Assembly: GCA_018000995.1 (NCBI GenBank)
Contig: JAGNIU010000001.1
Location: 310,001-374,000, forward strand
Origin: Bacteroidia bacterium
GTDB taxonomy: Bacteria; Bacteroidota; Bacteroidia; B-17B0; Aurantibacillaceae
Direction of reading: 5' to 3'
Length of the DNA: 64,000 nt
Shown: positions 59,841 to 61,904 of the stretch, piece after piece
Layout of the letters: every line of letters begins with the position of its first letter
Position numbering within the stretch: position 1 is the stretch's first letter
The notes under the pieces: model-generated
What the model saw: the letters and a program-made list of their open reading frames with translations, nothing else
What the model was told of the DNA's origin: nothing
Databases searched by the model: none
Position numbers and translations under genes: made by a program

Positions 59841-60227
59841 ATGGTTATAACTCTGCTAAAAAATCATTCTTACAAAATCTCCATTCTTTGGGCGCTGGTA
59901 ATTTTTGCCTTGTGTTCAATGCCGGGGCGGTTAATACCCGCTGTTAGTTGGCTGGAATTATTGAGTTTTGATAAATGGGTACACGCCGGTGTTTTTTTTG
60001 TTTTGGTTAGTTTGTTTGGCGTTTCTGTAAAAGCGCATCAACAAAACAACAACCTATTTTATTTGTACTTTCTAATTTCTGTAATGTACGGCGGACTTTT
60101 AGAAATAATGCAGGCAAAAGTTTTTAGCGAACGTAGTGCTGATTGGTATGATGTGATTGCGAATTCCTTTGGTTGCTTAATAGCATTACTGCTACATCAT
60201 AAAATAACCCGATTGGTTTTTAAATAG
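59841..60227 (+). CDS. VanZ-like membrane protein
   Basis: A 128-residue protein with three to four transmembrane helices: SILWALVIFALCSMPGRLI, WVHAGVFFVLVSLFGVSV, FYLYFLISVMYGGLLEIMQ and DVIANSFGCLIALLLHHKI. The W-V-H-x-x-x-F helix and the GGLLEIMQ-x-x-x-x-x-R-S-x-D-W-x-D motif are typical of the VanZ family, named after a teicoplanin-resistance accessory but mostly of unknown function. It commonly follows gcvH in Bacteroidota. Its ATG abuts the T-run of the gcvH terminator. Confidence 0.9.
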   Translation: MVITLLKNHSYKISILWALVIFALCSMPGRLIPAVSWLELLSFDKWVHAGVFFVLVSLFGVSVKAHQQNNNLFYLYFLISVMYGGLLEIMQAKVFSERSADWYDVIANSFGCLIALLLHHKITRLVFK

Positions 60228-60366
60228 AGCCTTTCGACTGCTTTCTAACTTTTTTCTTCATGGCAGGGCAACCATCGCATTTATTCGTCTTACACTGCTG
60301 AAAAATAAGCGCTGTACTTAAAACAATGGCCCATAAAAAAACCTGACTCTTAAAGATTTGTTTCAT
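60220..60366 (-). CDS. 48-residue lipoprotein with CxxxxCxxC
   Basis: A small gene below usual size cut-offs. It encodes 48 residues: MKQIFKSQVFLWAIVLSTAL, then IFQQCKTNKCDGCPAM and a basic tail KKKVRKQSKGSI. The N-terminus is a classic lipoprotein signal with lipobox IFQQC; the lipidated Cys (25) is followed by Cys 30 and 33. An exact -7 box, TATCTTTG (60378-60371), ends 4 nt before the ATG. The stop lies within the end of the convergent VanZ-like gene (8-nt overlap). Function unknown; a metal- or redox-active surface peptide is only a guess. Confidence 0.7.
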   Translation of the reverse strand: MKQIFKSQVFLWAIVLSTALIFQQCKTNKCDGCPAMKKKVRKQSKGSI

Positions 60367-60370
60367 AATT

Positions 60371-60378
60371 CAAAGATA
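60371..60378 (-). promoter_or_regulatory. -7 promoter box of the 48-residue lipoprotein
   Basis: TATCTTTG on the minus strand matches TAnnTTTG exactly, 4 nt upstream of the ATG at 60366. No clear -33 TTG is present. Confidence 0.55.
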
Positions 60379-60406
60379 TAATTTAGTACTTTAGTATCAT
60401 TATTAT

Positions 60407-61153
60407 ATGATGCTTTTTTTCCATATTGGCCGCTATTTTATGCTTTTATTCAGGGTTTTTAGTAAGCCTGAGAAGTTTTCTGTTTATGGTCGTCAAATTG
60501 TTTACGAAATCAATTCCCTTGGAATTGGCTCTTTAAGTATCGTAAGTATCATTTCTGTTTTCATGGGTGGGGTTATCACCATTCAAAGTGCTTATGGTTT
60601 TTCAAGTCCCTGGATCCCGTTATACGCCGTTGGTTATACAACACGCGAATCCATGTTACTTGAATTTTGTCCAACTATTGTGAGTTTAATTTTAGCAGGA
60701 AAAGTTGGATCTAATATTGCTTCCGAAATTGGTGCCATGAGGGTAACTGAACAAATTGATGCGCTCGAAATTATGGGTGTAAACTCTGCAGGTTATTTGA
60801 TTCTTCCAAAAATTGTTGCGGCCGTATTCATCAATCCTTTTCTAATTGCAATTAGTATGTTCTTAGGGTTGGTAGGTGGTTATTTAATGGGGGTCGCTTC
60901 CGAGGCTTGTACATCGTACGAATACATTTTCGGGATTCAGGCCATGTTTGAGCCGCGGAAATTATATTATTCATTTACAAAAGTTGTAGTGTTTGCTTTC
61001 TTAATTACGTCGGTTGCTTCCTATTTTGGTTACTATACAAAGGGTGGCGCCCTTGAAGTTGGTGTATCGAGCACGCGCGCTGTAGTAATTACAAGTATTT
61101 TGATCCTGGTCTTCAATTTAATTCTTACCGGATTATTATTGCCAATTGATTGA
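60407..61153 (+). CDS. MlaE-family ABC transporter permease
   Basis: A 248-residue inner-membrane permease of the MlaE/YrbE family, which moves phospholipid between inner and outer membranes. Five to six helices are visible. Family segments are SIVSIISVFMGGVITIQSAY, LILAGKVGSNIASEIGAMRVTEQIDALEIMG and PKIVAAVFINPFLIAISMFLG. Two ATG codons in tandem begin it. It overlaps the ATPase gene by 8 nt. The substrate-binding MCE protein (MlaD) is not in the window. Confidence 0.92.
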   Translation: MMLFFHIGRYFMLLFRVFSKPEKFSVYGRQIVYEINSLGIGSLSIVSIISVFMGGVITIQSAYGFSSPWIPLYAVGYTTRESMLLEFCPTIVSLILAGKVGSNIASEIGAMRVTEQIDALEIMGVNSAGYLILPKIVAAVFINPFLIAISMFLGLVGGYLMGVASEACTSYEYIFGIQAMFEPRKLYYSFTKVVVFAFLITSVASYFGYYTKGGALEVGVSSTRAVVITSILILVFNLILTGLLLPID

Positions 61154-61904
61154 AATTAAAAACATATCCAAAAGTTTTGGCGACCGTAAAATAATCGATG
61201 ACGTGTCGTTTACGTTTTATCCCGGAAAAACTAATTTAATGATTGGCGAAAGTGGTTGCGGAAAAACAACCATTCTAAAATTAATGGTGGGATTACATGA
61301 GGTTGATGAAGGACAAATTTTATATTCAGGGAAAAACTTTCCGGTATTAGGACCAAAAGAAAAACAAGAGGTGCGCAAAGAAATTGGCATGTTGTTTCAG
61401 GCGGGCGCTTTATTTGATTCGCAAACCTTAGAAGAAAACGTTCGCTTTCCATTAGATATGTTTACTAGTCTTACTAAGGCTGAAAAACTAGACCGCGTTA
61501 ATTTTTGTTTAGAGCGCGTTAAACTAGAAGGAAGAAACGCTTTATATCCATCAGAGTTAAGCGGTGGTATGAAAAAACGTGCGGCTCTTGCGCGCGCTAT
61601 TGCTAATAATCCGAAATATTTATTTTGTGATGAGCCTAACTCTGGTCTGGATCCAAAAACATCGATTATAATTGATGAATTAATTCAAGACATCACCCAC
61701 GAATATAATATTACAACTGTTGTTATTACGCACGACATGAATTCGGTTCTTGAAATTGGCGAAAACGTTATGTTTATCTACAAAGGAAAAAATTGGTGGA
61801 CAGGAACACAAAAAGATATTTTAAGCGTTACCAATAAAGAGATGTACGATTTTGTTTTTGCTTCAGAATTTATGCAGCAGGTTTTTAAAGCCGCTAAATC
61901 ATAA
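61146..61904 (+). CDS. MlaF-type ABC transporter ATPase
   Basis: A 252-residue ATP-binding subunit. Walker A is GESGCGKTTILKL near residue 34, the Q-loop GMLFQAGALFDSQT has the form usual for MlaF, the signature is ELSGGMKKRAALARAIA, Walker B is YLFCDEPNSGLDP and the switch His is in VVITHDMNSVLEIG. The start is TTG, inside the permease gene. It should energise the adjacent MlaE-type permease. It converges with the Cys-cluster gene (6-nt overlap). Confidence 0.94.
   Translation: MIEIKNISKSFGDRKIIDDVSFTFYPGKTNLMIGESGCGKTTILKLMVGLHEVDEGQILYSGKNFPVLGPKEKQEVRKEIGMLFQAGALFDSQTLEENVRFPLDMFTSLTKAEKLDRVNFCLERVKLEGRNALYPSELSGGMKKRAALARAIANNPKYLFCDEPNSGLDPKTSIIIDELIQDITHEYNITTVVITHDMNSVLEIGENVMFIYKGKNWWTGTQKDILSVTNKEMYDFVFASEFMQQVFKAAKS

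Follow-up and report, generated by a model that had tools for sequence, protein, structure and literature searches.

In the 64,000-nucleotide stretch of Bacteroidia DNA analysed here (the window), a short reading frame on the minus strand, called X in the following, lies between a VanZ-like gene and an mlaEF gene pair. The genes and features at this locus are as follows, in window coordinates:

59841..60227 (+), VanZ-like gene, convergent with X and overlapping it by 8 bp (PF04892, E 5.3e-07)
60220..60366 (-), X, putative micro-lipoprotein gene of 48 residues, ATG at 60364-60366 and stop codon at 60220-60222
60223..60234 (-), C-terminal KGSI of X, invariant in 12/12 rows from the genus and near relatives only
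60265..60285 (-), core of X, N28-K-C30-D-G-C33-P34, with N28, C30, C33 and P34 invariant in 17 rows
60292..60294 (-), C25, presumed lipid-anchor Cys, with an aligned Cys in 69/70 relatives
60295..60366 (-), putative signal peptide of X, residues 1-24, ending in F-Q-Q (from the sequence and an AlphaFold2 helix at residues 3-26)
60371-60378 (-), -7 box of X, TATCTTTG (TAnnTTTG), 4 nt before the ATG
60407..61153 (+), mlaE (MlaE permease), divergent neighbour of X (PF02405, E 9.3e-63)
61146..61904 (+), mlaF-like ABC ATPase gene (PF00005, E 6.3e-33)

Translation of the minus strand from 60220 to 60366 gives MKQIFKSQVFLWAIVLSTALIFQQCKTNKCDGCPAMKKKVRKQSKGSI followed by a stop codon, with cysteines at positions 25, 30 and 33. 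X runs towards the VanZ-like gene and away from mlaE, and 40 nt separate its ATG from the first candidate start of mlaE; given this distance and the 8-bp overlap on the other side, X takes up essentially the whole gap, as an earlier note on this DNA had described. The same note had proposed a 48-residue, Cys-containing exported small protein, had made the proposal dependent on conservation of the frame in close relatives, and had suggested a comparison of synonymous and nonsynonymous changes. Orthologues are present at the equivalent place in six of the seven other genomes of the genus, with frame, place and motif kept, which bears the proposal out; no X was found in the seventh, G004, which is 75% complete. 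The seven genus sequences give pS > pN in all 21 pairwise comparisons, in agreement with purifying selection, and dN/dS ranges from 0.06 to 0.21 in the seven pairs that are diverged and have an estimable dS, the remainder being either saturated in dS (13 pairs) or near-identical (one pair). No alternative frame is open in the X region. Since the frame is conserved and pS lies above pN in all pairs, we regard X as a protein-coding gene, and it is virtually certain that it encodes a real protein. The shortness of X and its lack of a curated family above cut-off would fit a reading frame that arose by chance, or regulatory DNA without a protein product, but the conserved frame, motif and place as well as the pS excess do not; this explanation is extremely improbable, and the chance reading frame was ruled out on grounds of conservation and selection. 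At 48 residues, X is below size cut-offs, which would overlook it, and a gene of fewer than 50 codons can be missing from curated family libraries although it is kept across many families.

A 17-row profile detected relatives of X at E ≤0.01 in 76 of the 87 family genomes and 129 of the 395 class genomes, the weaker matches including signal peptides of other proteins. A 46-row profile gave matches in 78 of these 129 genomes at E 0.01. The 57 genomes referred to below as X genomes are those matched by the latter profile at E 4.8e-5 or better; they include G136, whose locus L189 carries a CDCP core and was counted as genuine X. In an alignment of 70 relatives, the anchor Cys is followed mostly by K and N, by a Cys and by a C-P that is invariant in 70 rows, usually with x-W or x-F behind it. 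The core that persists in the family comprises a signal peptide, the anchor Cys and a nearby K-N-x-C-x(1-3)-C-P-x-[W/F]. Among the 69 scored rows, the spacing n in C-x(n)-CP is 2 in 58, 1 in 10 and 3 in one, the mature part comprises 17-49 residues (median 27), and the median net charge is +5. Some further relatives have a single free Cys, so the two-Cys site is not universal in the family. Very small lipoproteins with a CPAY end and one free Cys make up a wider set (loci L014, L016, L019, L341 and L342); the genes occur as tandem copies in L341 and, in L014, L016 and L019, adjoin genes that we take to be ung and OsmC-like. The basic tail pointed out in the earlier note, KxSKGSI, is shared by the genus with several relatives; other subgroups lack it, and it is not class-wide. 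As KGSI is also kept where vanZ is not the neighbour, we consider it a feature of the protein.

The AlphaFold2 prediction for X, based on a 24-row alignment and with a mean pLDDT of 67.7, consists of the signal helix (residues 3-26), with no fold in the mature part. The lipobox consensus is [LVI][ASTVI][GAS]-C after a signal peptide. Of the 69 scored relatives, 61 have G or S directly before the anchor Cys (-1), whereas the window's protein has Q and its genus E, Q or A; since these residues are non-canonical, cleavage in the genus is presumed rather than safe. When the genes of the window itself were surveyed for their lipobox -1 residues, only four candidates turned up, and these were uninformative. 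The complete lipoprotein signal with lipobox that the earlier note had claimed is thus correct with regard to the signal peptide and the Cys in place, but not with regard to F-Q-Q before C25, which is non-canonical. Likewise, C25, C30 and C33 are present as the three spaced cysteines described there, but C25 is the presumed lipid anchor and two of them, not three, would be free. On the sequence evidence, X is probably a lipoprotein. Surface-exposed lipoproteins of Bacteroidota carry an acidic signal after the Cys, given for C. canimorsus as K-(D/E)2 or Q-A-(D/E)2 (PMC5080379). X differs from them in that a pair of neighbouring acidic residues at +2 to +6 after the Cys occurs in none of the 69 scored rows, which suggests that it faces the periplasm.

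The -7 box 4 nt upstream of X, which had been reported as exact, was confirmed at its position, and TATCTTTG is found upstream of X in 7/7 genus genomes, at a distance to the ATG of 17-19 nt in five of them and of 4-5 nt in two, including the window's. Of the 60 class loci in which mlaE is close, 48 have TANNTTTG on the X strand between the two genes, compared to 5.7 +/- 2.2 (maximum 12) expected from 200 sets of dinucleotide shuffles. In 15 of the 48 loci the end of the box lies 3-5 nt ahead of the ATG, and in 24 it lies within 10 nt, start codons having been assigned by a rule. The -7 box sits at -12 to -5 (PMC9723704), so that transcripts with such a short spacing would begin on or next to the ATG, and the X mRNA is likely to be leaderless in many genomes. 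Leaderless mRNAs account for just 5.5% in the same study, and 5' UTRs of <10 nt for about 3.7% in B. thetaiotaomicron (PMC7366714). The mlaE strand carries a box in 12 of the 60 intergenic regions versus 5.2 +/- 2.2 in shuffles, which is modest evidence for X and mlaE having a promoter pair. A direct repeat conserved in the genus is located upstream of the -7 box, at 60379-60405 of the window, where it reads ACTAAAGTACTAAA; it may be the site of a regulator or belong to the mlaE promoter.

With regard to gene neighbourhood, mlaE is in place in 26 and vanZ adjoins X in four of 39 named loci, nearly all of them from metagenome-assembled genomes, and the far side is variable. VanZ was ruled out as a partner of X, being a local neighbour only, and the gap between a VanZ-like gene and Mla genes in which the earlier note had placed X is real in the window, but a local context rather than a class-wide one. 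Outside the family, 80 loci were chosen from the better class matches, down to E about 1.6e-3; this set contains a single false match (L182) and omits G043, the second matches of G176 and G073, G382 (stop in frame), G192, G251 and all weaker ones, so that the counts from it apply to these 80 loci. mlaE is divergent from and adjacent to X in 61 of the 80 loci, at a distance within 400 nt in 60 of them from 15 families and further off in the remaining one (L152). A feoA gene is located on the same strand, at most 300 nt downstream of X, in 47 of the 80 loci from 14 families. Both neighbours are present in 37 loci, mlaE only in 24 (three of which stop at a contig end right behind X), feoA only in 10 and neither in nine, including L182. 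A frequent order in the class is mlaF-mlaE <- -> X-feoA-feoB. The labels FeoA, SprT and TonB receptor are presumptive, having been recognised from sequence; FeoB was also located by PF07664 coordinates, and Pfam identified the neighbours in the window itself. In 13 loci that were read past feoB, a SprT-like gene comes next in seven, and no small gene resembling PF12669 was evident by eye behind feoB. X before feoA is also found in G148, G095 and G065, two of which have a low-identity MlaE, and in L025, a locus from a single genome of the family to which the window belongs. The window's genome has FeoB on another contig (C59), apart from X, and in this genome and six others of its family no X was seen before feoA, feoAB being elsewhere.

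Several further neighbours were observed. A ferritin-like gene is the convergent neighbour of X in four loci of family f24, one subgroup of X is located by rlmB, and in a subgroup with a KKKKH end (L096, L098, L103 and L105) X is followed convergently by what we take to be a TonB-dependent-receptor-like gene and then a heavy-metal-domain-like gene. Locus L332 of G065 has two different X-like genes in tandem directly upstream of feoA-feoB (1501-1776). In the window itself, a gene for a putative zinc- or iron-chelating CxxCxxCC protein (PF03692; 61899-62387, minus strand) and a ferritin gene (PF00210; 63476-63928, minus strand) lie beyond mlaF, both within about 3.6 kb of X, so that its surroundings hold further genes related to metals.

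Using the window's MlaE as query, 122 matches were obtained in 121 of the 129 class genomes, and X is divergent from 45 of these window-type mlaE genes. This number is composed of 26 cases found from the X side, 17 found in upstream regions, G043 (coordinates only) and G155 (by eye); 15 of the 17 were detected by HMM, and L203 and L208 were accepted by eye. A reversed control of this HMM scan gave nothing at E <0.1. All 45 X-adjacent MlaE are among the 83 with at least 53% identity, and none is among the 39 below. Furthermore, X is present in 0/8 sampled genomes without a window-type MlaE (p 0.0098), and in seven of the eight X carriers without FeoB it lies beside mlaE. X could thus be an accessory of the Mla/MCE system, that is, a lipid-anchored peptide at its outer-membrane end or at MlaE which partly replaces MlaA and MlaC, with the divergent layout serving shared control. 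Neither MlaA (PF04333) nor MlaC (PF05494) was matched in any of the 129 class genomes, E. coli and Caulobacter controls being matched, and membership of X itself in MlaA or MlaC was likewise rejected for lack of a match in these genomes. The MlaD beta-barrel is described as absent in the FCB group (PMC10665443), and for the outer-membrane end of Mla the Bacteroidota are named as unexplored in two reviews (PMC11131202, PMC10212509). It is the mlaE adjacency in FeoB-less genomes, together with this open outer-membrane end, from which the Mla explanation gains. Against it, X is divergent from mlaE and not co-transcribed with it, ten of the 80 class loci have X with feoAB and not with mlaE, and X adjoins none of the 39 lower-identity MlaE. 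In addition, MlaE occurs in 383 of 395 class genomes, and with such near-universal presence its co-presence with X says little. Mla as sole partner was dropped once FeoA/FeoB-like genes had appeared on the other side of X; we keep it as a rival explanation that we judge rather unlikely. The window's genome encodes three MCE (MlaD) proteins, two of them beside their own mlaE. The third (G000 C64:135273-135512, locus L202, a 330-aa frame with no mlaE in the stretch examined) is a candidate for the missing MlaD partner of mlaEF in the window.

The relation to FeoB was assessed in the 57 X genomes. Where mlaE is adjacent to X (37 genomes), FeoB is downstream in 18, elsewhere in 12 and absent in seven; where it is not (20 genomes), the corresponding numbers are eight, 11 and one. 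Counting against a function in ferrous-iron import, X is found in eight of the 24 sampled genomes that lack a FeoB_C match (including G154, counted as FeoB-less as it has no PF07664 match), and its presence is not significantly tied to FeoB (p 0.17 and 0.36 for two nearly identical tables). The p values 0.17, 0.36 and 0.0098 were computed on 49/7, 48/8 and 56/0, respectively, the final counts being 49/105, 8/24 and 57/121. X might be an independent envelope peptide with a role in thiol redox, metal buffering or membrane stress, placed between mlaE and feoAB by an inherited gene order that overlapping promoters preserve. This would account for the persistence of X without adjacent feoAB or mlaE, as in the subgroup by rlmB and in 12 of the 57 X genomes, which have neither FeoB downstream nor mlaE adjacent, and for the CPAY-type relatives with a single free Cys, which are located elsewhere again; it does not sit well with the placement before feoA, which recurs in at least 14 families, also without mlaE nearby. 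We regard it as a tentative explanation, an independent thiol or metal role being nearly as likely as a Feo role.

X is a genuine gene of the class Bacteroidia that probably encodes a micro-lipoprotein; there is no doubt about the gene, but its function is uncertain. The leading single guess, to which we assign a probability of roughly 40%, is that X is a periplasm-facing accessory lipoprotein of ferrous-iron import; it is based on the same-strand placement at the head of feoAB, the two free cysteines and the precedent of small Cys-rich peptides around FeoB (PMC8749426). The ferritin-like gene convergent with X in family f24 is a further point in its favour. The frame is under purifying selection and provides a signal peptide, the aligned Cys at the lipobox position and the adjacent K-N-x-C-x(1-3)-C-P core; according to the accessory model, the product would be exported by Sec, lipidated on C25 and stay on the periplasmic side. 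By its sequence, the gene has its own sigma-A type -7 box, often at leaderless spacing, in the short region shared with the divergent mlaEF, and beyond its own family it is the first gene before same-strand feoA-feoB in 14 families or more. In the weak step of the model, the two free cysteines would act at the periplasmic face of the membrane as a small metal or redox accessory of Fe(II) import. In the window's lineage, X would have been separated from feoAB and stands beside mlaE. Given the FeoB-less carriers and the window's own genome, X cannot be called an obligate Feo subunit. We consider it improbable that X is a lipid-anchored Feo component in the stricter sense, i.e. an often leaderless, periplasm-facing, class-wide family that receives or protects Fe(II) for FeoB and whose expression is tied to MlaEF via the shared promoter region; if true, such a component would link iron import to outer-membrane lipid balance. 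Overall, the earlier note was right about a real, conserved, small exported Cys protein and its -7 box, but its account of the context was incomplete, since the frequent mlaF-mlaE <- -> X-feoA-feoB order and the K-N-x-C-x-x-C-P core could not be seen from the window alone. X thereby becomes a defined and testable small-protein family in a class in which the literature treats the outer-membrane end of Mla as an open question (PMC11131202, PMC10212509) and the translation of small Cys-rich peptides around FeoB as unanswered (PMC8749426). The conserved core points to residues to mutate, and the natural variation of X, with or without feoAB and with or without an adjoining mlaE, provides ready-made comparison strains.

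We recognised no paper describing the X family in the open-licence literature searched. Neither Pfam nor NCBIfam gave a match above cut-off for the window's X protein, and no curated family was seen above cut-off among the matches listed for 46 relatives, the weak ones other than PF12669 being scattered; a Uteroglobin match of P0001 (E 0.023) was below cut-off and taken as chance. Among known systems, small Cys-rich membrane peptides that go with FeoB in Bacteroidetes (PF12669, FeoB_associated) resemble X in being tiny, Cys-containing membrane peptides encoded with feoB, but they are encoded downstream of feoB and have a Cx3-5Cx2-3Cx6-8C motif (PMC8749426), whereas X lies upstream of feoA and has two free cysteines and a lipobox-like Cys. 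Only one of the 46 members matches PF12669, at 19.4 versus a cut-off of 27 bits, and membership was rejected because of this score and the different gene position. FeoC resembles X in being small and Cys-containing, with its Cys motif at the C-terminus, but this Feo accessory is described as cytoplasmic (PMC8749426), whereas X has a signal peptide; no FeoC family is among the matches listed for the 46 members. MlaA (VacJ) is an outer-membrane lipoprotein connected with MlaEF, a connection that X has by neighbourhood only, and its model comprises 195 positions compared to a median of 27 residues for mature X. Solely in terms of how it might work, X can be compared with LptM, a small lipoprotein serving a large envelope machine, which works with LptD/LptE and is reported as conserved in Enterobacteriaceae (PMC10567701); three of the 46 members match its model NF047847 weakly (best E 0.00059), and X differs from LptM in its C-x(1-3)-C-P core and its neighbours. 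X would be best described, as far as its sequence and gene context indicate, as a small lipoprotein of the envelope whose gene is associated with transport genes.
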